Positions 10,002 through 50,224 of a stretch of 64,000 nucleotides of DNA are shown here, piece after piece. The DNA is from Synchiropus splendidus (Eukaryota > Chordata > Actinopteri > Syngnathiformes > Callionymidae), in the NCBI RefSeq assembly GCF_027744825.2, contig NC_071348.1, positions 17,951,563 to 18,015,562 of the forward strand, given 5' to 3'. The position numbers and the translations under genes were made by a program. How positions within the stretch are numbered: position 1 is the stretch's first letter; each line of letters begins with the position of its first letter. The notes beneath the pieces were generated by a model. It was not told the DNA's origin, did no database searches, and was given only the letters and a program-made list of their open reading frames with translations.

Positions 10002-10004
10002 GTT

Positions 10005-21430: not shown

Positions 21431-21942
21431 GTCACCCGGAACCCGGAAATCAGACACGACCGGGAAGTCATCCGGACCCTGTGGATGCTGATCATTCATT
21501 GAACGGGTCGCTCCAACTGTTCAACGGTGAGAGCAAAACATTCAGTTCAATAAAAAAAAGTATTTTAAGCACAGTCTGTCGATGTATTTTATATTTAACT
21601 ACCTATGTTTTTTGTTTTATTCAACGCCTGTGCGTATGAAAACAGACGATCAGTCAGAGGTCGAAGGAGTAGGGCACCCGCTCGTTGATTCTTTAACTCA
21701 CCAGACGCCTCAGCTGATAGGAGGTGGGAAAAAACATTTTGGAGTGATAGTTTACGTTTCACTGCTGTATTTATTTATTTATTTTTTCACATGAAAACAG
21801 ATACAAAGACAACGAGCACGCCACACCTTCTACCTGTCGCTTCAACACCAACACCAACACCAACGTTTGGTAAGATACGAATCTCAATTTTTTTCAACAC
21901 ATCTCTACCGTTCAGTATCAGTTGAATGGTTGTATGTTCGCT

Positions 21943-21986
<44 letters not shown>

Positions 21987-23935
21987 TACGTGCGTGCGTG
22001 CGTGTGTGTGTGTTTTATCTGTAATGCGGTTTGTCTATGTTCCGGCTATGTGCTTTTAGACGGTGTCATTTTACTATTGAAGGTGTTTGAGTAACTGTTG
22101 CTGCTAAGCGTCATTGTGATTTTACTACTATGCTTTAACGACGACGGACACTAGAGGTCGCGATTACTATTTCACACTGTGCCTTAACGACGGCGACCAC
22201 TAGAGGTCGGGATTTTACTCACTGTAATGTGCTTTAATGACGGCGGCCACTAGAGGTCGGGATTTTACTAACTGTAATGTGCTTTAACGACGGCGGCCAC
22301 TAGAGGTCGTGATTTTACTAATTGTAATGTGCTTTAACGACGGCGGCCACGTGAGGTCGAGATTACTATTTCACACTATGCTTTAACGATGGCGACCACT
22401 AGAGGTCGGGATAACTATTTTACACTATGCTTTAACGACGGCGGCCACTAGAGGTCGTGATTTTACTAACTGTAATGTGCTTTAACGACGGCGGCCGCTA
22501 GAGGTCGTGATTTTACTAACTGTAATGTGCTTTAACGACGCCGGCCGCTAGAGGTCGTGATTTTACTAACTGTAATGTGCTTTAACGACGGCGGCCACTA
22601 GAGGTCGTGATTTTTACTAACTGTAATGTGCTTTAATGACGGCGGCCACTAGAGGTCGTGATTTTACTAACTGTAATGTGCTTTAACGACGGCGGCCACT
22701 AGAGGTCGTGATTTTACTAACTGTAATGTGGTTTAACGACGGCGGCCGCTAGAGGTCGTGATTTTACTAATTGTAATGTGCTTTAACGACGGCGGCCACT
22801 AGAGGTCGTGATTTTACTTTTTTATATTTAACTACCTATGTTTTTTGTTTTATTCAACGCCTGTGCGTATGAAAACAGACGATCAGTCAGAGGTCGAAGG
22901 AGTAGGGCACCCGCTCGTTGATTCTTTGACTCACCAGACGCCTCAGCTGATAGGAGGTGGGAAAAAACATTTTGGAGTGATAGTTTACGTTTCACTGCTG
23001 TATTTATTTATTTATTTTTTCACATGAAAACAGATACAAAGACAACGAGCACGCCACACCTTCTACCTGTCGCTTCAACACCAACACCAACACCAACGTT
23101 TGGTAAGATACGAAGGTCGTGATTTTACTAATTGTAATGTGCTTTAACGACGGCGGCCACTAGAGGTCGTGATTTTACTAACTGTTATGTGCTTTAACGA
23201 CGGCGGCCACTAGAGGTCGTGATTTTACTAATTGTAATGTGCTTTAACGGCGGCGGCCACTAGAGGTCGTGATTTTACTAACTGTAATGTGCTTTAACGA
23301 CGGCGACCACTAGAGGTCGTGATTTTACTAATTGTAATGTGGTTTAACGACGGCGTCCACTAGAGGTCGTGATTTTACTAACTGTAATGTGGTTTAACGA
23401 CGGCGGCCGCTAGAGGTCGTGATTTTACTAATTGTAATGTGCTTTAACGACGGCGGCCACTAGAGGTCCTGATTTTACTAACTGTAATGTGGTTTAACGA
23501 CGGCGGCCACTAGAGGTCGTGATTTTACTTATTGTAAAGTGGTTTAATGAGAGTATACACTAGTGATTTACTATTTGTTTTTACGCTTTAAATGTTGATC
23601 CTTAGTAGATCCCTACATTTACACTCTGTTTATATTAATATCATATTAACTGCTATCCGAGGTCTTGCTTCTAGATTGTATTTACATTTGTGTTGTTGTC
23701 GGTATTCTGTTTCAGCTCTCCCCTCTGGGTCTTGGCCTTTGTGGGAGACATCGACGCCGGTTTCCTCAGTACCTCTGGATCTACTATCCGGACCGTTCCC
23801 TGCTGAAGACTCAACGTCGGCATCTGGGCTATCCGCACCTCCACAGCCACCGTCGCCGACACCATCAGCACCGCCAGCAACCACAGACAAGCCGCGGACA
23901 TCGCCCCGGATACCAAAACAAAAAGAAAGAAATAC
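21431..23935 (+). repeat. C-D-E unit 1
   Basis: C1 is 21,431-21,526 (96 nt), C2 is 21,646-21,723 (78 nt) and C3 is 21,801-21,869 (69 nt). Each follows an AG and precedes GTGAGA, GTGGGA or GTAAGA. All are phase 1-1, so each is a frame-neutral cassette. The encoded pieces are rich in Pro, Thr, Ser and His. The next intron carries a GT/GC-variant tract and the 50-bp minisatellite, interrupted at 22,822-23,113 by a stray C2-C3 fragment. Exon E starts at 23,716 after TGTTTCAG and is fused near 23,915 to the second A module, so its 3' part is missing. Confidence 0.75.
22110..23545. repeat. 50-bp minisatellite, first block
   Basis: Tandem copies of a 50-bp unit (core AACGACGGCGGCCACTAGAG, then GTCGTGATTTTACTAACTGT). 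Variants include GGCCGCTAG (a NotI-type GCGGCCGC), TAATTG for TAACTG and TGGTTT for TGCTTT. Period 50 is clear because the same columns recur every 50 bases. The block lies within the C3-E intron. Confidence 0.95.
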
Positions 23936-25250
23936 TTTTCGTTTTCAGCATTAGTCAATGTTTGAACTGTCTCTGCATTGTAGGCTAAATAATCAAAACA
24001 CGTTAGTAGCTACAATATTATTTCGGGTTTAAACATTTTAGAAGTTATTTAACATCTTATGAAGAAGTTTTTCATTCTTGAAATATTTCTTCAAGATAAA
24101 ACAGTAGAAAGAAAACACTTTTTAGTCTTCACTAATAGTTCAAACGACACAGCTACCCAACTCATGCACCATTTTTTCAAAATGCGTTTAAACAGATAAT
24201 TTGTACTTGTTTGAGAAATACTTTTAGTTTTCAGAATAGAACAAAAGAAAGAAATACTTTTAGTTTTCAGAAAATAAGGTTGAGTGAACAAGGATAAAAC
24301 AAAAAAGAAAGAAATACTTTAGTTTTCAGCATTAGTTCAAATGACACAGCTATTCAACTCATATGAGTTTCTGTTGAATCAGTCTATTTAATTTTACACC
24401 CTGTGTGAGTTTGAAACGATGCATTTTTAGAGTCTGTGATAACCAGTTAATTTGCTGCGGAGATGCGAGTTCTTTCCTGGACGGTTGAATCTTCAAAAGA
24501 GACAGTCTGAAGGCGGACCTCATTGTCTTCAGACAACATTGTTTAGGCTGTAGGAAATACACTTCTGTACCTTCCACGTGTTCGTTTTCTCGTGAGAATG
24601 ACAACCAAAAACACCCCAACTTAAAATCCAAAAGAATTTACACCCTGACAGAGGCGTCTAATTACCCTAACAGAGCTCTGGGCCCGCAACTACACCTGGC
24701 TTTGCCTCAGCTCCGATGGTGTAGAGTGACAAAGACTATCTCAGGCCCTGACCCCTTTTATTACACATTTCAGTTCATTTTGGAGTTGCAGTCTCCACTG
24801 ATTGATCCTGGTCTTCTTACGGTCCAGGTCGTCATGGGTCAAATTCCAGATCTTGTGCCGTCTCCACCACATCTGGAAACACCTTTCGAATATTTATACA
24901 TCTGTCTTTAATTGGCGACAATGGCAGAGCGGATGACCCAAGCCATTCTTTTTTTGGCATCCTGCTTCTGTCACCATGTCCGTTCTCCATCTGATTATTT
25001 GTTTTACGTCGCCGCGGTTCATACCTCTGAGCTACCTAGCAGACATTGATCCTGGTCTTCTTATGGTCCAGGTCGTCATGGGTCAAATTCCAGATCTTGT
25101 GCTGTCTCCACCACATCTGGAAACACCTTTAGAATATTTATACATCTGTCTTTAATTGGCGACAATGGCAGAGTGGGTGACCCGATCCAAATCAACAAAG
25201 ACGTCACCTAGGACCTACCCACACGGACGGAGTATTTAGGTGATCCGATT
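23919..25250. repeat. A module, copy 2 (full length)
   Basis: Near-identical to 45,972-47,290. It includes the AAGAAATACTTT tandem motifs, then about 0.8 kb of unrecognised sequence with a 90-codon minus-strand frame (24,359-24,631) conserved in the other copy only through duplication. A ~140-bp internal direct repeat (24,800-24,945 and 25,045-25,185, around GATCCTGGTCTTCTTA) is also present. Confidence 0.8.
24921..25049 (+). CDS. 42-codon frame with hydrophobic N-terminus (possible first exon)
   Basis: It starts ATG and encodes MAERMTQAILFLASCFC, then a Tyr/Val/His-rich tail. The start resembles a short signal peptide or anchor, and it lies upstream of exon i. The identical frame is at 46,976-47,104. 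No donor was defined; it may be chance. Confidence 0.2.
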   Translation: MAERMTQAILFLASCFCHHVRSPSDYLFYVAAVHTSELPSRH

Positions 25251-25915
25251 CAGACCACATTTTACATCAGTTCCGGGGTAACCTTCGCTGCTGACCAGAC
25301 CTTCCAGAACTTCATCCTCCTTTCCAAAAGGACTCCAGACTACCCATGGATGCCTCTTCCTCTGCACGTCGTAGGTGAATATTTATCTGTCTATCTATCC
25401 ATCTATCTATATCTATACAGTATACATATAAGTATATACATATATGTGTATCTATGTATTTACATTTACATATATAAGTATAATAAAAACGTTACGCCAT
25501 GTTTATCACGTACCATGTCTCTTTTCATTGACAGACGTCGTCACTCATCTGTGTGATGTTCATTTAACGCAGAGTGATACTGGTAAAAATATTGAATTAT
25601 TTTATAATTCGTTGTTAATATCTCTATTATGTGTTACAACAGCCGCACTTCTATTTTTCAGATATTATCGCCTCCGCGAATAACTTCCCGGAGACGCTGA
25701 TCGGCGCTGAGGAGCTTGAGCGGTTAATGCGTGTAACTTTTGAAGACGGAGATGCCCGTGCGGATCTGTCGGCTGTGACTCCGAGAGCGAGTCTTCAAGA
25801 CAGCGGCACCGAGGCTCAGAACACGCCGTGTATTATAATAATCGACAGCGAGGACGAGTTCGTCCGGGGCAGAGTACAGGAAATCGAGCGAAGGGGAGTA
25901 ATCAACGCTCTCTGA
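25190..25915 (+). CDS. B exons i-iii, copy 2
   Basis: Exon i ends at 25,374, exon ii is 25,535-25,582 and exon iii is 25,662-25,915. Splice sites match those of copy 1. In exon i the frame runs upstream through GDPIQINKDV, with a TAG codon at 25,209 where copy 3 reads GAG. Exon ii differs by one substitution (GATGTT for GACGTT, silent). Exon iii ends in the same stop as copy 1. No recognised domain; see copy 1 for the description. Confidence 0.45.
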
Positions 25916-26052
25916 GCCGTAAGCGACGGTATAATTCGGCACGGAAGACAGGACCGGCGCGAGTCATTGGTGAGAAGGAGACAGCGATTCTAATCATAAT
26001 TACGATAACTAGGTAAAGAATAGCGGTATTTATTAAGAAAGAAGGAATTCAC

Positions 26053-26542
26053 ACACGACCGGGAAGTCATCCGGACCCTGTGGATGCTGATCATTCATTG
26101 AACGGGTCGCTCCAACTGTTCAACGGTGAGAGCAAAACATTCAGTTCAATAAAAAAAAAGTATTTTAAGCACAGTCTGTCGATGTATTTTATATTTAACT
26201 ACCTATGTTTTTTGTTTTATTCAACGCCTGTGCGTATGAAAACAGACGATCAGTCAGAGGTCGAAGGAGTAGGGCACCCGCTCGTTGATTCTTTAACTCA
26301 CCAGACGCCTCAGCTGATAGGAGGTGGGAAAAAACATTTTGGAGTGATAGTTTACGTTTCACTGCTGTATTTATTTATTTATTTTTTCACATGAAAACAG
26401 ATACAAAGACAACGAGCACGCCACACCTTCTACCTGTCGCTTCAACACCAACACCAACACCAACGTTTGGTAAGATACGAATCTCAATTTTTTTCAACAC
26501 ATCTCTACCGTTCAGTATCAGTTGAATGGTTGTATGTTCGCT

Positions 26543-26578: not shown

Positions 26579-27729
26579 TGCGTGCGTGCGTACGTGCGTG
26601 CGTGCGTGTGTGTGTGTTTTATCTGTAATGCGGTTTGTCTATGTTCCGGCGATGTGCTTTTAGACGGTGTCATTTTACTATTGAAGGTGTTTGAGTAACT
26701 GTTGCTGCTAAGCGTCATTGTGATTTTACTACTATGCTTTAACGACGACGGACACTAGAGGTCGCGATTACTATTTCACACTATGCTTTAACGACGGCGG
26801 CCACGTGAGGTCGAGATTACTATTTCACACTATGCTTTAACGATGGCGACCACTAGAGGTCGGGATTACTAATTTACACTATGCTTTAACGACGGCGGCC
26901 ACTAGAGGTCGTGATTTTACTAACTGTCATGTGCTTTAACGACGGCGGCCACTAGAGGTCGTGATTTTACTAACTGTCATGTGCTTTAACGACACCGGCC
27001 GCTAGAGGACGTGATTTTACTAACTGCAATGTGCTTTAACGACGGAGGCCGCTAGAGGTCGTGATTTTACTAACTGTAATGTGCTTTAACGACGGCGGCC
27101 ACTAGAGGTCGTGATTTTACTAACTGTAATGTGCTTTAATGAGGGCGGCCACTAGAGGTCGTGATTTTACTAATTGTAATGTGCTTTAACGACGGCGGCC
27201 AATAGAGGTCGAGATTTTACTAACTGTTATGTGCTTTAACGACGGCGGCCACTAGAGGTCGTGATTTTACTAACTGTAATGTGGTTAAACGACGGCGTCC
27301 ACTAGAGGTCGTGATTTTACTAATTGTAATGTGGTTTAATGACAGTATACACTAGTGATTTACTATTTGTTTTTACGCTTTAAATGTTGATCCTTAGTAG
27401 ATCCCTACATTTACACTCTGTTTATATTAATATCATATTAACTGCTATCCGAGGTCTTGCTTCTAGATTGTATTTACATTTGTATTGTTGTCGGTATTCT
27501 GTTTCAGCTCTCCCCTCTGGGTCTTGGCCTTTGTGGGAGACATCGACGCCGGTTTCCTCAGTACCTCTCGATCTACTATCCGGACCGTTCCCTGCTGAAG
27601 ACTCGACGTCGGCATCTGGGCTATCCGCACCTCCCCAGCCACCGTCGCCGACACCATCAGCACAGCCAGCAACCACAGACAAGCCGCGGACATCGCCCCG
27701 GATAGCAAAACAAAAAGAAAGAAATACTT
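26053..27729 (+). repeat. C-D-E unit 2
   Basis: C1 is 5'-truncated and lacks the GT tract and acceptor; it ends at 26,125. C2 is 26,246-26,323 and C3 is 26,401-26,469. The minisatellite is about 26,730-27,345. E is 27,508-27,729, after which a (GT)n tract leads straight into C1 of unit 3. Confidence 0.75.
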
Positions 27730-27763
27730 GTGTGTGTGTGTGTGTGTGTGTGTGCATGAAAAG

Positions 27764-28276
27764 ATCACCCGGAACACGGAAATCAGACACGACCGGGAAG
27801 TCATCCGGACCCTGTGGATGCTGATCATTCATTGAACGGGTCGCTCCAACTGTTCAACGGTGAGAGCAAAACATTCAGTTCAATAAAAAAAAAGTATTTT
27901 AACCACAGTCTGCCGATGTATTTTATATTTAACTACCTATGTTTTTTGTTTTATTCAACGCCTGTGCGTATGAAAACAGACGATCAGTCAGAGGTCGAAG
28001 GAGTAGGGCACCCGCTCGTTGATTCTTTAACTCACCAGACGCCTCAGCTGATAGGAGGTGGGAAAAAACATTTTGGAGTGATAGTTTACGTTTCACTGCT
28101 GTATTTATTTATTTATTTTTTCACATGAAAACAGATACAAAGACAACGAGCACGCCACACCTTCTACCTGTCGCTTCAACACCAACACCAACACCAACGT
28201 TTGGTAAGATACGAATCTCAATTTTTTTCAACACATCTCTACCGTTCAGTATCAGTTGAATGGTTGTATGTTCGCT

Positions 28277-28315
<39 letters not shown>

Positions 28316-29338
28316 GTGTGTGTTTTATCTGTAATGCGGTTTGTCTATGTTCCGGCTATGTGCTTTTAGACGGTGTCATTTTACTATTGAAGGTGTTTGA
28401 GTAACTGTTGCTGCTAAGCGTCATTGTGATTTTAATACTATGCTTTAACGACGGCGGCCGCTAGAGGTCGTGATTTTACTAATTGTAATGTGCTTTAACG
28501 ACGGCGGCCACTAGAGGTCGTGATTTTACTAACTGTAATGTGCTTTAACGACGGCGGCCACTAGAGGTCGGGATTTTACTAACTGTAATGTGCTTTAATG
28601 AGGGCGGCCACTAGAGGTCGTGATTTTACTAATTGTAATGTGCTTTAACGACGGCGGACGCTAGAGGTCGTGATTTTACTAACTGTAATGTGCTTTAACG
28701 ACGGCGGCCACTAGAGGTCGAGATTTTACTAACTGTAATGTGCTTTAATGAGGGCGGCCACTAGAGGTCGTGATTTTACTAATTGTAATGTGCTTTAACG
28801 ACGGCGGCCAATAGAGGTCGAGATTTTACTAACTGTTATGTGCTTTAACGACGGCGGCCACTAGAGGTCGTGATTTTACTAACTGTAATGTGGTTAAACG
28901 ACGGCGTCCACTAGAGGTCGTGATTTTACTAATTGTAATGTGGTTTAATGACAGTATACACTAGTGATATACTATTTGTTTTTACGCTTTAAATGTTGAT
29001 CCTTAGTAGATCCCTACATTTACACTCTGTTTATATTAATATCATATTAACTGCTATCCGAGGTCTTGCTTCTAGATTGTATTTACATTTGTATTGTTGT
29101 CGGTATTCTGTTTCAGCTCTCCCCTCTGGGTCTTGGCCTTTGTGGGAGACATCGACGCCGGTTTCCTCAGTACCTCTCGATCTACTATCCGGACCGTTCC
29201 CTGCTGAAGACTCGACGTCGGCATCTGGGCTATCCGCACCTCCCCAGCCACCGTCGCCGACACCATCAGCACAGCCAGCAACCACAGACAAGCCGCGGAC
29301 ATCGCCCCGGATAGCAAAACAAAAAGAAAGAAATACTT
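27764..29338 (+). repeat. C-D-E unit 3
   Basis: C1 27,764-27,859; C2 27,980-28,057; C3 28,135-28,203; minisatellite about 28,430-28,965; E 29,117-29,338. All splice dinucleotides of the C exons are present. Confidence 0.75.
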
Positions 29339-29368
29339 GTGTGTGTGTGTGTGTGTGTGCATGAAAAG

Positions 29369-31289
29369 ATCACCCGGAACCCGGAAATCAGACACGACCG
29401 GGAAGTCATCCGGACCCTGTGGATGCTGATCATTCATTGAACGGGTCGCTCCAACTGTTCAACGGTGAGAGCAAAACATTCAGTTCAATAAAAAAAAAGT
29501 ATTTTAACCACAGTCTGTCGATGTATTTTATATTTAACTACCTATGTTTTTTGTTTTATTCAACGCCTGTGCGTATGAAAACAGACGATCAGTCAGAGGT
29601 CGAAGGAGTAGGGCACCCGCTCGTTGATTCTTTAACTCACCAGACGCCTCAGCTGATAGGAGGTGGGAAAAAACATTTTGGAGTGATAGTTTACGTTTCA
29701 CTGCTGTATTTATTTATTTATTTTTTCACATGAAAACAGATACAAAGACAACGAGCACGCCACACCTTCTACCTGTCGCTTCAACACCAACACCAACACC
29801 AACGTTTGGTAAGATACGAATCTCAATTTTTTTCAACACATCTCTACCGTTCAGTATCAGTTGAATGGTTGTATGTTCGCTATTGTGTGTGTGTGTATGT
29901 GTGTGTGTGTGCGTGTGTGTGTGTTTTATCTGTAATGCGGTTTGTCTATGTTCCGGCTATGTGCTTTTAGACGGTGTCATTTTACTATTGAAGGTGTTTG
30001 AGTAACTGTTGCTGCTAAGCGTCATTGTGATTTTAATACTATGCTTTAACGACGGCGGCCGCTAGAGGTCGTGATTTTACTAATTGTAATGTGCTTTAAC
30101 GACGGCGGCCACTAGAGGTCGTGATTTTACTAACTGTAATGTGCTTTAACGACGGTGGCCACTAGAGGTCGTGATTTTACTAACTGTAATGTGCTTTAAC
30201 GACGGCGGCCACTAGAGGTCGGGATTTTACTAACTGTAATGTGCTTTAACCACGGCGGCCACTAGAGGTCGTGATTTTACTAATTGTAATGTGCTATAAC
30301 GACGACGGCCGCTAGAGGTCGTGATTTTACTAATTGTAATGTGCTTTAACGACGGCGGCCACTAGAGGTCGTGATTTTACTAACTGTAATGTGCTTTAAC
30401 GACGGCGGCCATTAGAGGTCGGGATTTTACTAACTGTAATGTGCTTTAATGAGGGCGGCCACTAGAGGTCGTGATTTTACTAATTGTAATGTGCTTTAAC
30501 GACGGCGGACGCTAGAGGTCGTGATTTTACTAACTGTAATGTGCTTTAACGACAGCGGCCGCTAGAGGTCGTGATTTTACTAACTGTAATGTGCTTTAAC
30601 GACGGCGGCCGCTAGAGGTCGTGATTTTACTAACTGTAATGTGCTTTAACGACGGCGGCCACTAGAGGACGTAATTTTACTAATTGTAATGTGCTTTAAC
30701 GACGGCGGCCACTAGAGGACGTGATTTTACTAACTGTTATGTGGTTTAACGACGGCGGCCGCCAGAGGTCGTGATTTTACTAATTGTAATGTGCTTTAAC
30801 GATGGCGTCCACTAGAGGTCGTGATTTTACTAACTGTAATGTGGTTAAACGACGGCGTCCACTAGAGGTCGTGATTTTACTAATTGTAATGTGGTTTAAT
30901 GACAGTATACACTAGTGATTTACTATTTGTTTTTACGCTTTAAATGTTGATCCTTAGTAGATTCCTACATTTACACTCTGTTTATATTAATATCATATTA
31001 ACTGCTATCCGAGGTCTTGCTTCTAGATTGTATTTACATTTGTATTGTTGTCGGTATTCTGTTTCAGCTCTCCCCTCTGGGTCTTGGCCTTTGTGGGAGA
31101 CATCGACGCCGGTTTCCTCAGTACCTCTGGATCTACTATCCGGACCGTTCCCTGCTGAAGACTCGACGTCGGCATCTGGGCTATCCGCACCTCCACAGCC
31201 ACCGTCGCCGACACCATCAGCACAGCCAGCAACCACAGACAAGCCGCGGACATCGCCCCGGATACCAAAACAAAAAGAAAGAAATACTT
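29369..31289 (+). repeat. C-D-E unit 4
   Basis: C1 29,369-29,464; C2 29,585-29,662; C3 29,740-29,808; minisatellite about 30,030-30,905; E 31,068-31,289. Splice sites are intact for C1-C3. Confidence 0.75.
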
Positions 31290-31319
31290 GTGTGTGTGTG
31301 TGTGTGTGTGCATGAAAAG

Positions 31320-33217
31320 ATCACCCGGAACCCGGAAATCAGACACGACCGGGCAGTTATCCGGACCCTGTGGATGCTGATCATTCATTGAACGGGTTGC
31401 TCCAACTGTTCAACGGTGAGAGCAAAACATTCAGTTCAATAAAAAAAAGTATTTTAACCACAGTCTGTCGATGTATTTTATATTTAACTACCTATGTTTT
31501 TTGTTTTATTCAACGCCTGTGCGTATGAAAACAGACGATCAGTCAGAGGTCGAAGGAGTAGGGCACCCGCTCGTTGATTCTTTAACTCACCAGACGCCTC
31601 AGCTGATAGGAGGTGGGAAAAAACATTTTGGAGTGATAGTTTACGTTTCACTGCTGTATTTATTTATTTATTTTTTCACATGAAAACAGATACAAAGACA
31701 ACGAGCACGCCACACCTTCTACCTGTCGCTTCAACACCAACACCAACACCAACGTAAGATACGAATCTCAATTTTTTTCAACACATCTCTACCGTTCAGT
31801 ATCAGTTGAATGGTTGTATGTTCGCTATTGTGTGTGTGTGTGTGTGTGTGTGCGCGTACGTGCGTGCGTGCGTGCGTGTGTGTGTGTGTGCGTGTGTGTG
31901 TGTTTTATCTGTAATGCGGTTTGTCTATGTTCCGGCTATGTGCTTTTAGACGGTGTCATTTTACTATTGAAGGTGTTTGAGTAACTGTTGCTGCTAAGCG
32001 TCATTGTGATTTTACTACTATGCTTTAACGACGACGGACACTAGAGGTCGCGATTACTATTTCACACTGTGCCTTAACGACGGCGACCACTAGAGGTCGG
32101 GATTTTACTAACTGTAATGTGCTTTAATGACGGCGGCCACTAGAGGTCGTGATTTTACTAACTGTAATGTGCTTTAATGACGGCGGCCACTAGAGGTCGT
32201 GATTTTACTAATTGTAATGTGCTTTAACGACGGCGGCCACTAGAGGTCGGGATTTTACTAACTGTAATGTGCTTTAACGACGGCGGCCACTAGAGGACGT
32301 GATTTTACTAATTGTAATGTGCTTTAACGACCGCGGCCGCTAGAGGTCGTGATTTTACTAACTGTAATGTGCTTTAACGACGTCGGCCGCTAGAGGTCGT
32401 GATTTTACTAACTGCAATGTGCTTTAACGACGGCGGCCGCTAGAGGTCGTGATTTTACTAACTGTAATGTGCTTTAACGACGGCGGCCACTAGAGGTCGT
32501 GATTTTACTAATTGTAATGTGCTTTAACGACGGCGGCCACTAGAGGTCGTGATTTTACTAACTGTAATGTGCTTTAACGACGGCGGCCACTAGAGGTCGT
32601 GATTTTACTAATTGTAATGTGCTTTAACGACGGCGGCCACTAGAGGTCGTGATTTTACTAATTGTAATGTGCTTTAACGACGGCGGCCACTAGAGGTCGT
32701 GATTTTACTAATTGTAATGTGCTTTAACGACGGCGGCCACTAGAGGTCGCGATTTTACTAACTGTAATGTGGTTTAACGATGGCGTCCACTAGAGGTCGT
32801 GATTTTACTTATTGTAAAGTGGTTTAATGAGAGTATACACTCGTGATTTACTATTTGTTTTTACGCTTTAAATGTTGATCCTTAGTAGATCCCTACATTT
32901 ACACTCTGTTTATATTAATATCATATTAACTGCTATCCGAGGTCTTGCTTCTAGATTGTATTTACATTTGTGTTGTTGTCGGTATTCTGTTTCAGCTCTC
33001 CCCTCTGGGTCTTGGCCTTTGTGGGAGACATCGACGCCGGTTTCCTCAGTACCTCTGGATCTACTATCCGGACCGTTCCCTGCTGAAGACTCGACGTCGG
33101 CATCTGGGCTATCCGCACCTCCACAGCCACCGTCGCCGACACCATCAGCACAGCCAGCAACCACAGACAAGCCGCGGACATCGCCCCGGATACCAAAACA
33201 AAAAGAAAGAAATACTT
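31320..33217 (+). repeat. C-D-E unit 5
   Basis: C1 31,320-31,415; C2 31,535-31,612; C3 from 31,690. C3 has a 5-base deletion (TTTGG) at its end near 31,754, which moves the donor and changes its phase. Minisatellite about 32,025-32,825; E 32,996-33,217. Confidence 0.75.
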
Positions 33218-33247
33218 GTGTGTGTGTGTGTGTGTGTGCATGAAAAG

Positions 33248-33762
33248 ATCACCCGGAACCCGGAAATCAGACACGACCGGGAAGTCATCCGGACCCTGTG
33301 GATGCTGATCATTCATTGAACGGGTCGCTCCAACTGTTCAACGGTGAGAGCAAAACATTCAGTTCAATAAAAAAAAAGTATTTTAACCACAGTCTGTCGA
33401 TGTATTTTATATTTAACTACCTATGTTTTTTGTTTTATTCAACGCCTGTGCGTATGAAAACAGACGATCAGTCAGAGGTCGAAGGAGTAGGGCACCCGCT
33501 GGTTGATTCTTTAACTCACCAGACGCCTCAGCTGATAGGAGGTGGGAAAAAACATTTTTGGAGTGATAGTTTACGTTTCACTGCTGTATTTATTTATTTA
33601 TTTTTTCACATGAAAACAGATACAAAGACAACGAGCACGCCACACCTTCTACCTGTCGCTTCAACACCAACACCAACACCAACGTTTGGTAAGATACGAA
33701 TCTCAATTTTTTTCAACACATCTCTACCGTTCAGTATTAGTTGAATGGTTGTATGTTCGCTA

Positions 33763-33795
<33 letters not shown>

Positions 33796-37548: not shown

Positions 37549-37581
<33 letters not shown>

Positions 37582-39142
37582 TACGTGCGTGCGTGCGTGC
37601 GTGTGTGTGTGTGTGCGTGTGTGTGTGTTTTATCTGGAATGCGGTTTGTCTATGTTCCGGCTATGTGCTTTTAGACGGTGTCATTTTACTATTGAAGGTG
37701 TTTGAGTAACTGTTGCTGCTAAGCGTCATTGTGATTTTACTACTATGCTTTAACGACGACGGACACTAGAGGTCGCGATTACTATTTCACACTGTGCCTT
37801 AACGACGGCGACCACTAGAGGTCGGGATTTTACTCACTGTAATGTGCTTTAATGACGGCGGCCACTAGAGGTCGGGATTTTACTAACTGTAATGTGCTTT
37901 AACGACGGCGGCCACTAGAGGTCGTGATTTTACTAATTGTAATGTGCTTTAACGACGGCGGCCACTAGAGGTCGTGATTTTACTAACTGTAATGTGCTTT
38001 AACGACGGCGGCCACTAGAGGACGTGGTTTTACTAACTGTAATGTGCTTTAACGACGGCGGCCACTAGAGGTCGGGATTTTACTAACTGTAATGTGCTTT
38101 AACGACGTCGGCCGATAGAGGTCGTGATTTTACTAACTGCAATGTGCTTTAACGACGGCGGCCGCTAGAGGTCGTGATTTTACTAACTGTAATGTGCTTT
38201 AACGACGGCGGACGCTAGAGGTCGTGATTTTACTAACTGTAATGTGCTTTAACGACAGCGGCCACTAGAGGACGTGGTTTTACTAACTGTAATGTGCTTT
38301 AACGACGGCGGCCACTAGAGGTCGGGATTTTACTAACTGTAATGTGCTTTAACGACGTCGGCCGATAGAGGTCGTGATTTTACTAACTGCAATGTGCTTT
38401 AACGACGGCGGCCGCTAGAGGTCGTGATTTTACTAACTGTAATGTGCTTTAACGACGGCGGACGCTAGAGGTCGTGATTTTACTAACTGTAATGTGCTTT
38501 AACGACAGCGGCCGCTAGAGGTCGTGATTTTACTAACTGTAATGTGGTTTAACGACGGCGGCCGCTAGAGGTCGTGATTTTACTAATTGTAATGTGCTTT
38601 AACGATGGCGGCCACTAGAGGTCGTGATTTTACTAACTGTAATGTGCTTTAACGACGGCGTCCACTAGAGGTCGTGATTTTACTAACTGTAATGTGGTTA
38701 AACGACGGCGTCCACTAGAGGTGGTGATTTTACTAATTGTAATGTGGTTTAATGACAGTATACACTAGTGATTTACTATTTGTTTTTACGCCTTAAATGT
38801 TGATCCTTAGTAGATTCCTACATTTACACTCTGTTTATATTAATATCATATTAACTGCTATCCGAGGTCTTGCTTCTAGATTGTATTTACATTTGTATTG
38901 TTGTCGGTATTCTGTTTCAGCTCTCCCCTCTGGGTCTTGGCCTTTGTGGGAGACATCGACGCCGGTTTCCTCAATACCTCTGGATCTACTATCCGGACCG
39001 TTCCCTGCTGAAGACTCGACGTCGGCATCTGGGCTATCCGCACCTCCACAGCCACCGTCGCCGACACCATCAGCACAGCCAGCAACCACAGACAAGCCGC
39101 GGACATCGCCCCGGATACCAAAACAAAAAGAAAGAAATACTT
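37042..39142 (+). repeat. C-D-E unit 8
   Basis: C1 37,042-37,130 carries a 7-base deletion, so it is no longer a multiple of three. C2 37,251-37,328; C3 37,406-37,474. The minisatellite (about 37,740-38,755) contains an internal repeat of a five- to six-unit block. E 38,921-39,142. Confidence 0.75.
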
Positions 39143-39170
39143 GTGTGTGTGTGTGTGTGTGCATGAAAAG

Positions 39171-39683
39171 ATCACCCGGAACCCGGAAATCAGACACGAC
39201 CGGGAAGTTATCCGGACCCTGTGGATGCTGATCATTCATTGAACGGGTTGCTCCAACTGTTCAACGGTGAGAGCAAAACATTCAGTTCAATAAAAAAAAA
39301 GTATTTTAACCACAGTCTGTCGATGTATTTTATATTTAACTACCTATGTTTTTTGTTTTATTCAACGCCTGTGCGTATGAAAACAGACGATCAGTCAGAG
39401 GTCGAAGGAGTAGGGCACCCGCTCGTTGATTCTTTAACTCACCAGACGCCTCAGCTGATAGGAGGTGGGAAAAAACATTTTGGAGTGATAGTTTACGTTT
39501 CACTGCTGTATTTATTTATTTATTTTTTCACATGAAAACAGATACAAAGACAACGAGCACGCCACACCTTCTACCTGTCGCTTCAACACCAACACCAACA
39601 CCAACGTTTGGTAAGATACGAATCTCAATTTTTTTCAACACATCTCTACCGTTCAGTATCAGTTGAATGGTTGTATGTTCGCT

Positions 39684-39727
<44 letters not shown>

Positions 39728-41189
39728 TACGTGCGTGCGTGCGTGCGTGTGTGTGTGTGTGCGTGTGTGTGTGTTTTATCTGTAATGCGGTTTGTCTATG
39801 TTCCGGCTATGTGCTTTTAGACGGTGTCATTTTACTATTGAAGGTGTTTGAGTAACTGTTGCTGCTAAGCGTCATTGTGATTTTAATACTATGCTTTAAC
39901 GACGGCGGCCGCTAGAGGTCGTGATTTTACTAATTGTAATGTGCTTTAACGACGGCGGCCACTAGAGGTCGTGATTTTACTAACTGTTATGTGCTTTAAC
40001 GACGGCGGCTACTAGAGGTCGTGATTTTACTAATTGTAATGTGCTTTAACGACGGCGGCCACTAGAGGTCGTGATTTTACTAATTGTAATGTGCTTTAAC
40101 GACGGCGGCCACTAGAGGTCGAGATTTTACTAACTGTAATGTGCTTTAACCACGGCGGCCACTAGAGGTCGTGATTTTACTAATTGTAATGTGCTTTAAC
40201 GACGACGGCCGCTAGAGGTCGTGATTTTACTAATTGTAATGTGCTTTAACGACGGCGGCCACTAGAGGTCGTGATTTTACTAACTGTAATGTGCTTTAAC
40301 GACGGCGGCCATTAGAGGTCAGGATTTTACTAACTGTAATGTGCTTTAATGAGGGCGGCCACTAGAGGTCGTGATTTTACTAATTGTAATGTGCTTTAAC
40401 GACGGCGGACGCTAGAGGTCGTGATTTTACTAACTGTAATGTGCTTTAACGACAGCGGCCGCTAGAGGTCGTGATTTTACTAACTGTAATGTGCTTTAAC
40501 GACGGCGGCCGCTAGAGGTCGTGATTTTACTAACTGTAATGTGCTTTAACGACGGCGGCCACTAGAGGACGTAATTTTACTAATTGTAATGTGCTTTAAC
40601 GACGGCGGCCACTAGAGGTCGTGATTTTACTAACTGTAATGTGGTTAAACGACGGCGTCCACTAGAGGTCGTGATTTTACTAATTGTAATGTGGTTTAAC
40701 GATGGCGTCCACTAGAGGTCGTGATTTTACTAACTGTAATGTGGTTAAACGACGGCGTCCACTAGAGGTCGTGATTTTACTAATTGTAATGTGGTTTAAT
40801 GACAGTATACACTAGTGATTTACTATTTGTTTTTACGCTTTAAATGTTGATCCTTAGTAGATTCCTACATTTACACTCTGTTTATATTAATATCATATTA
40901 ACTGCTATCCGAGGTCTTGCTTCTAGATTGTATTTACATTTGTATTGTTGTCGGTATTCTGTTTCAGCTCTCCCCTCTGGGTCTTGGCCTTTGTGGGAGA
41001 CATCGACGCCGGTTTCCTCAGTACCTCTGGATCTACTATCCGGACCGTTCCCTGCTGAAGACTCGACGTCGGCATCTGGGCTATCCGCACCTCCACAGCC
41101 ACCGTCGCCGACACCATCAGCACAGCCAGCAACCACAGACAAGCCGCGGACATCGCCCCGGATACCAAAACAAAAAGAAAGAAATACTT
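39171..41189 (+). repeat. C-D-E unit 9
   Basis: C1 39,171-39,266; C2 39,386-39,463; C3 39,542-39,610; minisatellite about 39,890-40,805; E 40,968-41,189. Confidence 0.75.
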
Positions 41190-41219
41190 GTGTGTGTGTG
41201 TGTGTGTGTGCATGAAAAG

Positions 41220-43126
41220 ATCACCCGGAACCCGGAAATCAGACACGACCGGGAAGTCATCCGGACCCTGTGGATGCTGATCATTCATTGAACGGGTCGC
41301 TCCAACTGTTCAACGGTGAGAGCAAAACATTCAGTTCAATAAAAAAAAAGTATTTTAACCACAGTCTGTCGATGTATTTTATATTTAACTACCTATGTTT
41401 TTTGTTTTATTCAACGCCTGTGCGTATGAAAACAGACGATCAGTCAGAGGTCGAAGGAGTAGGGCACCCGCTCGTTGATTCTTTAACTCACCAGACGCCT
41501 CAGCTGATAGGAGGTGGGAAAAAACATTTTGGAGTGATAGTTTACGTTTCACTGCTGTATTTATTTATTTATTTTTTCACATGAAAACAGATACAAAGAC
41601 AACGAGCACGCCACACCTTCTACCTGTCGCTTCAACACCAACACCAACACCAACGTAAGATACGAATCTCAATTTTTTTCAACACATCTCTACCGTTCAG
41701 TATCAGTTGAATGGTTGTATGTTCGCTATTGTGTGTGTGTGTGTGTGTGTGTGCGCGTACGTGCGTACGTGCGTGCGTGCGTGCGTGTGTGTGTGTGTGC
41801 GTGTGTGTGTGTTTTATCTGTAATGCGGTTTGTCTATGTTCCGGCTATGTGCTTTTAGACGGTGTCATTTTACTATTGAAGGTGTTTGAGTAACTGTTGC
41901 TGCTAAGCGTCATTGTGATTTTACTACTATGCTTTAACGACGACGGACACTAGAGGTCGCGATTACTATTTCACACTGTGCCTTAACGACGGCGACCACT
42001 AGAGGTCGGGATTTTACTAACTGTAATGTGCTTTAATGACGGCGGCCACTAGAGGTCGTGATTTTACTAACTGTAATGTGCTTTAACGACGGCGGCCACT
42101 AGAGGTCGTGATTTTACTAATTGTAATGTGCTTTAACGACGGCGGCCACTAGAGGTCGGGATTTTACTAACTGTAATGTGCTTTAACGACGGCGGCCACT
42201 AGAGGAAGTGATTTTACTAATTGTAATGTGCTTTAACGACCGCGGCCGCTAGAGGTCGTGATTTTACTAACTGTAATGTGCTTTAACGACGTCGGCCGCT
42301 AGAGGTCGTGATTTTACTAACTGCAATGTGCTTTAACGACGGCGGCCGCTAGAGGTCGTGATTTTACTAACTGTAATGTGCTTTAACGACGGCGGCCACT
42401 AGAGGTCGTGATTTTACTAATTGTAATGTGCTTTAACGACGGCGGCCACTAGAGGTCGTGATTTTACTAACTGTAATGTGCTTTAACGACGGCGGCCACT
42501 AGAGGTCGTGATTTTACTAATTGTAATGTGCTTTAACGACGGCGGCCACTAGAGGTCGTGATTTTACTAATTGTAATGTGCTTTAACGACGGCGGCCACT
42601 AGAGGTCGTGATTTTACTAATTGTAATGTGCTTTAACGACGGCGGCCACTAGAGGTCGCGATTTTACTAACTGTAATGTGGTTTAACGATGGCGTCCACT
42701 AGAGGTCGTGATTTTACTTATTGTAAAGTGGTTTAATGAGAGTATACACTCGTGATTTACTATTTGTTTTTACGCTTTAAATGTTGATCCTTAGTAGATC
42801 CCTACATTTACACTCTGTTTATATTAATATCATATTAACTGCTATCCGAGGTCTTGCTTCTAGATTGTATTTACATTTGTGTTGTTGTCGGTATTCTGTT
42901 TCAACTCTCCCCTCTGGGTCTTGGCCTTTGTGGGAGACATCGACGCCGGTTTCCTCAGTACCTCTGGATCTACTATCCGGACCGTTCCCTGCTGAAGACT
43001 CGACGTCGGCATCTGGGCTATCCGCACCTCCACAGCCACCGTCGCCGACACCATCAGCACAGCCAGCAACCACAGACAAGCCGCGGACATCGCCCCGGAT
43101 ACCAAAACAAAAAGAAAGAAATACTT
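41220..43126 (+). repeat. C-D-E unit 10
   Basis: C1 41,220-41,315; C2 41,436-41,513; C3 from 41,591 with the same 5-base donor deletion as unit 5. Minisatellite about 41,930-42,735. E is expected at 42,905-43,126, but its acceptor reads TTTCAACT, so the AG is lost. Confidence 0.75.
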
Positions 43127-43156
43127 GTGTGTGTGTGTGTGTGTGTGCATGAAAAG

Positions 43157-44417
43157 ATCACCCGGAACCCGGAAATCAGACACGACCGGGAAGTTATCCG
43201 GACCCTGTGGATGCTGATCATTCATTGAACGGGTTGCTCCAACTGTTCAACGGTGAGAGCAAAACATTCAGTTCAATAAAAAAAAAGTATTTTAACCACA
43301 GTCTGTCGATGTATTTTATATTTAACTACCTATGTTTTTTGTTTTATTCAACGCCTGTGCGTATGAAAACAGACGATCAGTCAGAGGTCGAAGGAGTAGG
43401 GCACCCGCTCGTTGATTCTTTAACTCACCAGACGCCTCAGCTGATAGGAGGTGGGAAAAAACATTTTGGAGTGATAGTTTACGTTTCACTGCTGTATTTA
43501 TTTATTTATTTTTTCACATGAAAACAGATACAAAGACAACGAGCACGCCACACCTTCTACCTGTCGCTTCAACACCAACACCAACACCAACGTAAGATAC
43601 GAATCTAAATTTTTTTCAACACATCTCTACCGTTCAGTATCAGTTGAATGGTTGTATGTTCGCTATTGTGTGTGTGTGTGTGCGCGTACGTGCGTACGTG
43701 CGTGCGTGCGTGCGTGTGTGTGTGTGTGCGTGTGTGTGTGCGTGTGTGTGTGTTTTATCTGTAATGCGGTTTGTCTATGTTCCGGCTATGTGCTTTTAGA
43801 CGGTGTCATTTTACTATTGAAGGTGTTTGAGTAACTGTTGCTGCTAAGCGTCATTGTGATTTTACTACTATGCTTTAACGACGACGGACACTAGAGGTCG
43901 CGATTACTATTTCACACTGTGCCTTAAGGACGGCGACCACTAGAGGTCGGGATTTTACTAACTGTAATGTGCTTTAACGACGGCGGCCACTAGAGGTCGT
44001 GATTTTACTTATTGTAAAGTGGTTTAATGAGAGTATACACTAGTGATTTACTATTTGTTTTTACGCTTTAAATGTTGATCCTTAGTAGATCCCTACATTT
44101 ACACTCTGTTTATATTAATATCATATTAACTGCTATCCGAGGTCTTGCTTCTAGATTGTATTTACATTTGTGTTGTTGTCGGTATTCTGTTTCAGCTCTC
44201 CCCTCTGGGTCTTGGCCTTTGTGGGAGACATTGACGCCGGTTTCCTCAGTACCTCTGGATCTACTATCCGGACCGTTCCCTGCTGAAGACTCGACGTCGG
44301 CATCTGGGCTATCCGCACCTCCACAGCCACCGTCGCCGACACCATCAGCACCGCCAGCAACCACAGACAAGCCGCGGACATCGCCCCGGATACCAAAACA
44401 AAGAGAAAGAAATACTT
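43157..44417 (+). repeat. C-D-E unit 11 (short minisatellite)
   Basis: C1 43,157-43,252; C2 43,373-43,450; C3 from 43,528 with the 5-base donor deletion. The minisatellite is only about three units (43,865-44,015). E is 44,196-44,417. Confidence 0.75.
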
Positions 44418-45985
44418 GTGTGTGTGTGTGTGTGTGTGCGCGTACGTGCGTACGTGCGTCCGTGCGTCTGTGTGTGCGTTTTATCTGTAATGCGGTTTGT
44501 CTATGTTCCGGCTTTGTGCTTTTAGACGGTGTCATTTTACTATTGAAGGTGTTTGAGTAACTGTTGCTGCTAAGCGTCATTGTGATTTTACTACTATGCT
44601 TTAACGACGACGGACACTAGAGGTCGCGATTACTATTTCACCCTATGCTTTAACGATGGCGACCACTAGAGGTCGGGATTACTAATTTACACCATGCTTT
44701 AACGACGGCGGCCACTAGAGGTCGTGATTTTACTAACTGTAATGTGCTTTAACGACGGCGGCCACTAGAGGTCGTGATTTTACTAATTGTAATGTGCTTT
44801 AATGACGGCGGCCGCTAGAGGTCGTGATTTTACTAACTGTAATTAGCTTTAACGACGGCAGCCACTAGAGGTCGTGATTTTACTAACTGTAATGTGCTTT
44901 AACGACGGCGGCCACGAGAGGTCGTGATTTTACTAACTGTAATGTGCTTTAACGACGGCGGCCACTAGAGGTCGTGATTTTACTAATTGTAATGTGCTTT
45001 AACGACGGCGGCCACTAGAGGTCGTGATTTTACTAACTGTAATGTGGTTTAACGACGGCGGCCACTAGAGGTCGTCATTTTACTAACTGTAATGTGCTCT
45101 AACGACGGCGGCCACTAGAGGTCGTGATTTTACTAACTGTAATGTGGTTTAACGACGGCGGCCACTAGAGGTCGTGATTTTACTAATTGTAATGTGCTTT
45201 AACGACGGCGGCCACTAGAGGTCGTGATTTTACTAATTGTAATGTGCTTTAAGGACGGCGGCCACTAGAGGTCGTGATTTTACTAACTGTAATGTGCTTT
45301 AACGACGGCGGCCGCTAGAGGTCGTGGTTTTACTAATTGTAATGTGCTTTAACGACGGCGGCCACTAGAGGTCGTGATTTTACTAACTGTAATGTGCTTT
45401 AACGACGGCGGCCACTAGAGGTCGTGATTTTACTAATTGTAATGTGGTTTAACGACGGCGTCCACTAGAGGTCGTGATTTTACTAACTGTAATGTGGTTT
45501 AACGACGGCGGCCGCTAGAGGTCGTGATTTTACTAATTGTAATGTGCTTTAACGACGGCGGCCACTAGAGGTCGTGATTTTACTAATTGTAATGTGGTTT
45601 AATGACAGTATACACTAGTGATTTACTATTTGTTTTTACGCTTTAAATGTTGATCCTTAGTAGATCCCTACATTTACACTCTGTTTATATTAATATCATA
45701 TTAACTGCTATCCGAGCTCTTGCTTCTAGATTGTATTTACATTTGTATTGTTGTCGGTATTCTGTTTCAGCTCTCCCCTCTGGGTCTTGGCCTTTGTGGG
45801 AGACATCGACGCCGGTTTCCTCAGTACCTCTGGATCTACTATCCGGACCGTTCCCTGCTGAAGACTCGACGTCGGCATCTGGGCTATCCGCAACTCCACA
45901 GCCACCGTCGCCGACACCATCAGCACCGCCAGCAACCACAGACAAGCCGCGGACATCGCCCCGGATACCAAAACAAAAAGAAACA
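44418..45985 (+). repeat. D-E unit 12 lacking C exons
   Basis: After E of unit 11, the GT tract joins directly to the GC-variant GT tract of the C3-E intron (near 44,440), so C1-C3 are absent. The minisatellite is about 44,585-45,605. E starts at 45,771 and is fused near 45,975 to the third A module. Confidence 0.75.
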
Positions 45986-47290
45986 AATACTTTTAGTTTT
46001 CAGCATTAGTCAATGTTTGAACTGTTTCTGCATTGTAGGCTAAATAATCAAAACACGTTAGTAGCTACAATATTATTTCGGGTTTAAACATTTTTGAAGT
46101 TATTTAACATCTTATGAAGAAGTTTTTCATTCTTGAAATATTTCTTAAAGATAAAACAGTAGAAAGAAAACACTTTTTAGTCTTCACTAATAGTTCAAAC
46201 GACACAGCTACCCAACTCATGCACCATTTTTTCAAAATGCTTTTAAACAGATAATTTGAACTTGTTTGAGAAATACTTTTAGTTTTCAGAATAGAACAAA
46301 AGAAAGAAATACTTTTAGTTTTCAGAAAACAAGGTTGAGTGAACAATGATGAAACAAAAAAGAAAGAAATACTTTAGTTTTCAGCATTAGTTCAAATGAC
46401 ACAGCTATTCAACTCACATGAGTTTCTGTTGAATCAGTCTATTTAATTTTACACCCTGTGTGAGTTTGAAACGATGCATTTTTAGAGTCTGTGATAACCA
46501 GTTAATTTGCTGCGGAGACGCGAGTTCTTTCCTGGACGGTTGAATCTTCAAAAGAGACAGTCTGAAGGCGGACCTCATTGTCTTCAGACAACATTGTTTA
46601 GGCTGTAGGAAATACACTTCTGTACCTTCCACGTGTTCGTTTTCTCGTGAGAATGACAACCAAAAACACCCCAACTTAAAATCCAAAAGAATTTACACCC
46701 TGACAGAGGCGTCTAATTACCCTAACAGAGCTCTGGGCCCGCAACTACACCTGGCTTTGCCTCAGCTCCGATGGTGTAGAGTGACAAAGACTATCTCAGG
46801 CCCTGACCCCTTTTATTACACATTTCAGTTCATTTTGGGGGTGCAGTCTCCACTGATTGATCCTGGTCTTCTTACGGTCCAGGTCGTCATGGGTCAAATT
46901 CCAGATCTTGTGCCGTCTCCACCACATCTGGAAACACCTTTAGAATATTCATACATCTGTCTTTAATTGGCGACAATGGCAGAGCGGATGACCCAAGCCA
47001 TTCTTTTTTTGGCATCCTGCTTCTGTCACCATGTCCGTTCTCCATCTGATTATTTGTTTTACGTCGCCGCGGTTCATACCTCTGAGCTACCTAGCAGACA
47101 TTGATCCTGGTCTTCTTATGGTCCAGGTCGTCATGGGTCAAATTCCAGATCTTGTGCTGTCTCCACCACATCTGGAAACACCTTTAGAATATTTATACAT
47201 CTGTCTTTAATTGGCGACAATGGCAGAGTGGGTGACCCGATCCAAATCAACAAAGACGTCACCGAGGACCTACCCACACGGACGGAGTAT
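45972..47290. repeat. A module, copy 3
   Basis: Near-identical to 23,919-25,250, including the tandem AAGAAATACTTT motifs, the ~140-bp internal direct repeat and the 42-codon frame at 46,976-47,104. No recognised gene. Confidence 0.8.
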
Positions 47291-47887
47291 TTAGGTGACC
47301 CGATTCAGACCACATTTTACATCAGTTCCGGGGTAACCTTGGCTGTTGACCAGACCTTCCAGAACTTCATCCTCCTTTCCAAAAGGACTCCAGACTATCT
47401 ATCTATATCTATACAGTATACATATAAGTATATACATATATGTGTATCTATGTATTTACATTTACATATATAAGTATAATAAAAACGTTACGCCATGTTT
47501 ATCACGTACCATGTCTCTTTTCATTGACAGACGTCGTCACTCATCTGTGTGACGTTCATTTAACGCAGAGTGATACTGGTAAAAATATTGAATTATTTTA
47601 TAATTCGTTGTTAATATCTCTATTATGTGTTACAACAGCCGCACTTCTATTTTTCAGATATTATCGCCTCCGCGAATAACTTCCCGGAGACGCTGATCGG
47701 CGCTGAGGAGCTTGAGCGGTTAATGCGTGTAACTTTTGAAGACGGAGATGCCCGTGCGGATCTGTCGGCTGTGAATCCGAGAGCGAGTCTTCAAGACAGC
47801 GGCACCGAGGCTCAGAACACGCCGTGTATTATAATAATCGACAGCGAGGACGAGTTCGTCCGGGGCCGAGTACAGGAAATCGACTGA
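47210..47887 (+). CDS. B exons i-iii, copy 3
   Basis: Exon i is open through GDPIQINKDVTEDL, but its 3' end and donor (present in copies 1 and 2) are deleted at about 47,398, where a CTAT microsatellite starts. Exon ii is 47,531-47,578 and exon iii is 47,658-47,887. A substitution in exon iii creates an earlier stop, seven codons short of copies 1 and 2. This copy therefore cannot splice exon i to exon ii in the same way. Confidence 0.4.

Positions 47888-49116: not shown

Positions 49117-49198
<82 letters not shown>
49117..49198. repeat. (TA)n microsatellite
   Basis: About 40 TA dinucleotides within the last C3-E intron. Confidence 0.97.
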
Positions 49199-49201
<3 letters not shown>

Positions 49202-49572
49202 TTCTTATACACTAATGATTCGTGATTTGCTATTTGTTTTTATGCTTTAAATGACGGTCCTGAGTAGGTCCATACATTGAGTTTTTTATTTATTTATTTT
49301 TAACGCTCTTTAGGATATGCTTCTGTTGTGATGATGGTTTTCGTGATGCTACACGTGTTGTTGTTTTATTATAGCCTTCGCTAGAAAACAACACGGCTCA
49401 ACACTGGTTATATGATTACGTAATTTTGTTTTTCCGCAGGTCGTATTTTTTCATATTGTACTAGGGTTATTTTCATACTACTCTGTTTATATTAATATCA
49501 TATTAACTGCTATCCGAGGTCTTGCTTCTAGATTGTATTTACATTTGTATTGTTGTCAAAATTCTGTTTCAG

Positions 49573-50224
49573 CTCTCCCTCCTGGGTCTTGGCCTTTGTG
49601 GGAGACATCGACGCTGGTTTCCTCATTACCTCTGGATCTACTATCCGGATCGTTCCCTACTGAAGACTCGACGTCGGCATCTGGGCAATCCGCACCTCCA
49701 CAGCCACCGTCGCCGCCACCATCAGCACCGCCAGCAACCACAGACAACCCGCGGATAGCACCCCGGACACCAACGTCGACTTGCGCCGCATCACCCCCTG
49801 ACCAAACCCTGCCTCTACCCCCTGCCCCCGAGCGCTCTGTCACAGCTACCCAAGACAGACCCCACGCTCCAGTGTCGCCGACCCTATTAGCGTTCCATGA
49901 TGCAACGGCTGTAAAACAACAGCTTGAATTCAGAGTACGTACGCTTGAACGTCGTCTTCATCAGAGTGAAATACAGAGTCGTCGTCTAGCACGTCAAGCG
50001 CGTCAAGCACGTAAATACCGCCGTTCTGCGAGAAATATACGTGAAGGTAAGATTAACAACCATTTCAACGAGTAATCAGCAGGGATGCATATGTCTTAAA
50101 TATTATGATAATCGTTACAGAATTCATCTTTAAGGACGTCACGAATAAAGCGCTGGTGTCTGAAGTTCTGAGACTCCTAAAACAACAAGGACCTGGTGGT
50201 AACAGACGTCGTGGACTGATCTGA
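49573..50224 (+). CDS. Complete E exon and terminal exon of the array gene
   Basis: Exon E is 49,573-50,046 (474 nt, phase 1-1), between TGTTTCAG and GTAAGA. The terminal exon is 50,121-50,224, after GTTACAG, and ends in TGA. Joining them keeps the frame open. The protein piece has three parts: a Pro/Ser/Thr-rich stretch of about 100 residues; a heptad-like helix (QQLEFRVRTLERRLHQSE) followed by an Arg/Gln-rich basic segment; and a short helical C-terminal exon (KALVSEVLRLLKQQ). A dimerising nuclear protein is a reasonable guess; no family was recognised. Only this copy has the coiled-coil part. It ends about 210 bp before PolB, on the same strand. Confidence 0.5.

Follow-up and report, generated by a model that had tools for sequence, protein, structure and literature searches.

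The 64,000-base stretch of Synchiropus splendidus DNA analysed here (the window; contig NC_071348.1, positions 17,951,563 to 18,015,562, G+C content 42%) contains two Polinton-type pieces. The right-hand element carries, between its left terminal repeat and its polymerase gene PolB, an array of repeated exon-like segments, which we designate B1–B3, C1–C3, E and F. An earlier interpretation of the letters of this stretch (the sequence-only reading) took the array for a cassette-exon gene expanded about twelvefold inside a Polinton and able to encode proteins with variable numbers of Pro/Thr/Ser-rich modules.

An exon array in a Polinton-derived element

The right element measures 40.5 kb from end motif to end motif (19629–60154). 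Its left terminal inverted repeat (19629–19794, unstranded) begins AGAGAG and pairs with the right one (59965–60154, unstranded, read as 60154–59965; 73% over 190 columns), which ends CTCTCT. PMC8097293 gives (AG)3//(CT)3 as a common Maverick end motif and places an accessory region of vertebrate Mavericks between terminal repeat and PolB; the terminal pair fits a Polinton/Maverick, and the array does lie inside a Polinton-like element, as had been proposed. No 6-bp target-site duplication was found at its ends (ATAGAC versus CACACC outside). Because rearrangement or duplication may erase such a signature, we call the element Polinton-derived. The PolB reading frame (50437–52227, plus strand) begins 213 bases beyond F and matches DNA_pol_B_2 (PF03175) at profile positions 366–463 of 468 only, with 24.4 bits, just below the cut-off of 25.8. 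Since this covers the C-terminal portion alone, about the last fifth of the profile, most of the domain appears to be missing or unrecognised, and the right element looks defective.

A recount in the window gave 12 copies of C1 and 13 each of C2, C3 and E, in agreement with the twelve C1-C2-C3 blocks plus one stray C2-C3 counted before; twelve E copies are truncated and one is complete, also as described. All array features lie on the plus strand. The array opens with a B block (20539–21205; B1 20539–20671, B2 20828–20875, B3 from 20955 to an in-frame TGA), followed by the first C1-C2-C3 block (21431–21869), the stray C2-C3 (22879–23102) and a truncated E (23716–23937) that is joined to a 515-bp segment and lacks a TG donor. 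A second B block (25251–25912; B1 to 25374, B2 25535–25582, B3 from 25662 to TGA) precedes a C block whose C1 is without its 5' part (26044–26469). In the main array (27508–44417), truncated E, a TG tract, a C block and a 50-bp minisatellite, the latter sitting between C3 and the next E, are repeated. Here the truncated E copies start at 27508, 29117, 31068, 32996, 34694, 36792, 38921, 40968, 42905 and 44196, each with a TG tract after it, and the C blocks at 27764, 29369, 31320, 33248, 34948, 37042, 39171, 41220 and 43157. The last truncated E (45771–45992) is again joined to the 515-bp segment (45970–46484; further copies at 19954–20465 and 23915–24429). Beyond it lie a third B block (47306–47884), in which B1 has lost its 3' end and B3 has two in-frame stops, the terminal C1-C2-C3 (48141–48558), with a GC donor at C2 and a C3 of 63 nt, the complete E (49573–50046; 474 nt, phase 1-1, donor AAG/GTAAGA) and F, the last exon (50121–50224; stop at 50222–50224).

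Truncated E is 222 nt long, a multiple of three, and runs into the TG tract (GTGTGT) in 10 of its 12 copies; in nine the tract opens straight into C1. The 515-bp segment begins where the two truncated E copies without a TG tract end, and multi-unit blocks themselves recur inside the array. C2 and C3 each start directly after ATGAAAACAG (window 21636, 21791 and 24 further places), and the window has 26 occurrences of the 11-mer ATGAAAACAGA, the combined number of C2 and C3 copies. The minisatellite lies within the units between 22131 and 49070, with 116 exact copies of its core, CCACTAGAGGTCG, in the window, all on one strand.

Splice sites, reading frames and selection

The exon lengths given in the sequence-only reading hold for C2 (78 nt in 13/13 copies), complete E (474 nt) and B2 (48 nt). 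C1 has the predicted 96 nt in 10 of the 11 copies that retain its start; the remaining copy, at 37042, has 89 nt and a broken frame. C3, described as 69 or 63 nt, measures 69 nt in nine copies and 63 nt in the terminal copy only, with a further three of 64 nt (31690, 41591, 43528), all broken in frame. The terminal C2 has a GC donor, and the E acceptor at 42905 reads AA; of three other genome copies, two show GT and one shows GC at the terminal C2 donor. We scored splice sites with position frequencies and ranked donors among the 4,548 GTs of the window. The donors of C1, array C2, 69- and 63-nt C3 and complete E fell within the top 0 to 1.5%, the last scoring 7.1 (top 0.0%), and the acceptors of B2, B3 and E scored fair to good. 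C1 acceptors (−5.3 to −8.1) and C2 acceptors (about −3.5) lie within the range of ordinary window AGs, and the TG-tract donors after truncated E score −0.1.

These data bear directly on the proposal that a varying number of C1-C2-C3 cassettes is spliced in while truncated E is skipped. C1 and C2 are multiples of three in most copies, the array donors of C1–C3 are good, and the AG and GT of the C exons are kept in diverged copies (described below) where both ends aligned. However, C1 and C2 acceptors score like ordinary AGs, the frame is broken in 3/13 C3 and 1/11 C1, and B3 carries an in-frame TGA ahead of its donor in all three window copies and in 5/5 pattern-matched copies overall. Truncated-E donor and C1 acceptor are 28–34 nt apart in nine copies; vertebrate introns are longer than this, so the two exclude each other as spliced partners. 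Reading through E-TG-C1 meets stops in all three frames (eight pattern-matched copies), and a composite E-TG-C1 exon was dropped for that reason. With E also near neutral and the array interval differing among 40/40 near-identical duplicates (see below), a twelvefold cassette gene of this kind seems very improbable. As B3 is blocked in frame before the donor preceding C1 (5/5), B and C-E-F may be separate transcripts.

An opposite splicing pattern is suggested by P0001, the single relative returned by a protein search with E. This Synchiropus splendidus prediction, "translation initiation factor IF-2-like" by a name that probably reflects composition only, comprises four truncated-E modules plus the initial 12 residues of another, with 93–97% identity to the 12 window copies over 75 residues in frame, and its model sits on a 34,533,849-bp contig (contig C5 of the same genome). 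Judged from its sequence, it joins truncated E to truncated E as if via the TG-tract donor and lacks C1–C3, which speaks against truncated E being skipped. Its variant order differs from that of the window array. A working gene could thus splice truncated E (222 nt, phase 1) to truncated E, skip the C blocks and yield proteins in which 74-residue Pro/Ser/Thr-rich modules vary in number; the basic coiled region encoded by complete E and F might form their end. The E acceptor is intact in 11/12 truncated copies and the TG donor in 10/12, none of the 11 copies matched by the search pattern has an in-frame stop, and complete E shows no indel or stop variant in 30 copies. Nevertheless, P0001 is a pipeline prediction that changes frame at one junction and ends at a point where one window copy carries a stop, the TG donors score −0.1, E evolves near neutrality and the interval size varies more than fourfold; we regard such a gene as unlikely. 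E as an unspliced ATG frame was dropped, as that frame is found in 12/12 truncated copies and is absent from complete E.

Protein searches covered candidates between 0.55 and 1.75 query lengths, so that longer relatives would be missed; within this range, B1 had no homologue and P0001 as query returned itself alone. Pfam offered no useful family for the array-gene exons, PDB nothing for E and chance-level rows for B3, and viral contigs no match for E, PolB or capsid. In the open-licence literature we found no published account of such an array.

The absence of a relative outside Synchiropus splendidus in these searches and of a Pfam family would be expected if the array had never been a gene and its frames had arisen by chance within a satellite-like repeat. 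The score of the array unit alone points the same way, being reached by 7, 20 and 10 of 100 shuffles in three settings; the one unusual value was the candidate-exon count under the loosest setting (1/100). By contrast, the phase-1 chain score of B2 to E was reached by 0/100 shuffles in each of three settings; that chain is built from B2, C3 and a form of E whose acceptor lies upstream, at 49465, and does not include B3, C1 or C2. In codon usage, the frame assigned by the sequence-only reading was the best forward frame in 7/9 exons (4.3 expected for stop-free shuffles), which 7% of stop-free shuffles equalled and which has P = 0.013 against other window DNA; this support is suggestive only, and C3 and the N-terminal part of E failed the test. 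C3 is uninformative on phase, since the three copies tabulated have no stop in any frame.

Between two diverged copies, F in the spliced frame shows two nonsynonymous and eight synonymous differences (N2:S8); read in the other frames, the same differences give 8:2 and 9:1 (P = 0.0008 for this single comparison, uncorrected for the six made). It was the strongest of the six, the others being N1:S5, 2:2, 2:1, 3:3 and 4:3. This contrast between frames indicates that F is a real coding exon, spliced to E and under purifying selection in the past. Together with splice dinucleotides kept in diverged copies and the B2 to E chain score, it renders a purely chance origin of the frames quite improbable. 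The claim of a spliced gene with the stated exon frames thus appears mostly right, as diverged copies, codon usage and F concur, although the frames are broken in several copies. For E, each comparison gave a ratio near that expected under neutrality: N12:S2 between array and terminal copy, N19:S4 among 30 near-identical copies and N28:S11 in a diverged pair.

Copies of the array across the genome

To avoid confusion with exons, contigs are written out as such below. Among five diverged copies read from contig C2, four contain B1-B2-B3-C1-C2-E-F once, with one to three minisatellite cores and, in three of them, C3 as well; in the fifth, E-F is present twice and B is absent. Splice AG and GT are present wherever both exon ends aligned. 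B3 is either broken earlier or followed by the same stop, and the frames of E and F are open in some of these copies and shifted or stopped in others. Unexpanded copies with a single exon set and kept splice sites, combined with the selection on F, make an ancestral spliced accessory gene likely real.

A 32-mer of F (up to 2 mismatches) occurs at 137 places in the genome, a 25-mer of C2 (up to 1 mismatch) at 854 and a 30-mer of the minisatellite at 5,911. Upstream of three other F copies we counted 19, 12 and 9 exact C2. Exact F is found at 87 places on 23 contigs, 18 of which are among contigs C1–C19, and on large contigs 75/77 copies are oriented toward the nearer chromosome end (for contigs C5, C7, C8 and C16–C19, positions below 10 Mb were taken as the low end, later confirmed for C5). 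Among the 13 diverged F copies listed of 50, 12 lie on contig C2 and 6/12 of these face the nearer end, the pattern expected of old independent insertions; the thirteenth, in the middle of contig C1, was left out of this count. Spacings between same-strand neighbours among exact F copies fall within 195–225 kb in 12/58 cases and, on contigs C3–C20, are often 205–221 kb, a hint of a larger repeat unit.

DNA outside the element is copied along with it. Left-flank DNA gave 183 first-look candidates, and all 40 that were scored (identity 100%, rounded) have a same-strand exact F 10.4–46.6 kb downstream. The flank-to-F interval, 32.1 kb in the window, takes 40 different sizes in these 40 near-identical duplicates. 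DNA beyond the right terminal repeat is 99.7–100% identical in 5/6 copies read; the piece taken from the sixth fell within the element core. Since flanking non-element DNA accompanies the block, it qualifies as a segmental duplication, and tandem kilobase units in strongly variable number qualify the array as a macrosatellite. An artefact of one assembly region was dismissed, as units and flanks recur on many contigs.

A 188-bp satellite was present at 7/7 readable array-side contig ends (eight fetched, one reading N); it also occurs 120 kb past one of the F copies. The opposite end of one chromosome, the start of contig C12, carries eight CCCTAA. A position of the block on the centromere side of the chromosomes fits the satellite ends, the CCCTAA end and the copy in the middle of contig C1, and is probable. 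The strand of the satellite follows the chromosome end (loci L051, L053, L055, L059, L060, L062, L064 and L049). On contig C15, at 19026000 (L048), another Polinton piece lies inverted 60 kb beyond an F, with about 88–93% identity to the window ATPase region.

Origin of the array and neighbouring features

We conclude, with a probability of about 0.75, that the array is a hypervariable macrosatellite, formed by unequal exchange, within a recent, co-oriented and probably pericentromeric segmental duplication. The ancestor would have been a spliced accessory gene (B1-B2-B3; C1-C2-C3-E-F), perhaps with two transcripts, between terminal repeat and PolB. A tandem duplication with breakpoints within E and at the 515-bp terminal segment may have come first, as suggested by the start of that segment at the ends of two truncated E copies; a deletion would then have brought truncated E up against the TG tract that precedes C1. 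Within the resulting 1.6–2.1-kb unit (TG, C1-C2-C3, 50-bp minisatellite, truncated E), unequal exchange, aided by the TG and minisatellite tracts, could have changed the unit number and produced the macrosatellite. Block and flanks would later have been distributed, in a single orientation, among the satellite-rich ends of most chromosomes (probably those on the centromere side); segmental duplication or interchromosomal exchange would account for this, and not separate Polinton insertions. The exon array accordingly looks like a by-product of repeat turnover rather than a working modular gene, and a present-day variable Pro/Ser/Thr-rich protein is at most a possibility.

Several observations weigh against this conclusion. 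Complete E is free of indels and stop variants across 30 near-identical copies, although the query favoured ungapped copies, and the NCBI annotation built a predicted protein model, P0001, on a relative array. Array and terminal copy differ more in exons (27/432) than in introns (10/274; Fisher P 0.17), which diversifying selection could also produce; the intron count omitted 46 nt after C3 with four differences, whose inclusion gives 14/320. The pericentromeric position is deduced, and interval sizes were resolved into units in the copies named.

A structural role for the Polinton block at centromere-side ends is doubtful. On this reading the block, copied in one direction to the majority of such ends beside the 188-bp satellite, would bear large one-strand arrays of a CTCF-like motif inside an exon array that is transcribed and varies in length; it would set a boundary or supply pericentromeric chromatin with transcripts, and variable Pro/Ser/Thr-rich proteins would be a side product. 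The minisatellite core CCACTAGAGGTCG differs at one core position from the CTCF consensus CCASYAGRKGGCRS, taken from PMC6746451, and the strict pattern occurs once in the window.

Macrosatellites such as D4Z4 and DXZ4 consist of kilobase tandem units, some with open frames or CTCF-type sites, in very variable number. The window array shares these kilobase units and their variability; it differs from D4Z4/DXZ4 in that each unit derives from part of a Polinton accessory gene and that the block occurs at about 137 places. Human subtelomere duplicon families reportedly form blocks common to many chromosome ends, whereas the block described here carries Polintons and lies on ends with the 188-bp satellite. 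Vertebrate Mavericks, according to PMC8097293, have two inward-facing gene modules on opposite strands, PolB-ATPase in one and protease-capsid-integrase in the other, with accessory regions outside and (AG)3//(CT)3 ends, a plan that the window element appears to resemble. Intact elements there measure 12.7–24.6 kb, with no introns seen in their genes. The window element differs in its 40.5-kb size, its mostly missing PolB, the lack of a matching 6-bp target duplication, its apparent spread by segmental duplication and its probable spliced accessory gene, for which alone the intronless rule fails, given the selection on F in the spliced frame supporting the E-F intron; the published statement concerns intact elements.

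The locus may serve as a datable example of segmental duplication carrying a virus-like transposon, its orientation kept, across satellite-rich chromosome ends. It also suggests that a Polinton can hold a spliced gene, against none in the published intact vertebrate elements. One genome holds a natural series from a single exon set to intervals of 10–47 kb, from which exon-array growth, homogenisation and any resulting transcripts are directly measurable.

The rest of the right element's core (52336–58509, unstranded) comprises the ATPase/PM side, a C5-like protease (54408–55028, minus strand) and capsid fragments; neither Pox_A32 (18.7 bits against a cut-off of 22.8) nor Peptidase_C5 (19.2 against 21.3) reaches its threshold. 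It matches the left Polinton piece at 91% over 52713–57284 and 85% over 57288–58509, where the likeness ends, adjoining a reverse transcriptase-like frame (58497–59270). For a putative capsid frame (11758–13080), Pfam gave no match and a fold predicted without alignment had a pLDDT of 31. B3 (47658–47884 and other copies) encodes IIIIDSEDE, which we take to resemble a SUMO-interacting motif. The left piece holds, besides capsid-type frames, an rve integrase (PF00665, 14986–15594; 39 bits, above the cut-off of 32.6) and a 3,382-bp ATPase segment present three times in tandem at 99.94% identity. This tandem (968–11113, ATPase and a second frame) is either very recent or an assembly effect.

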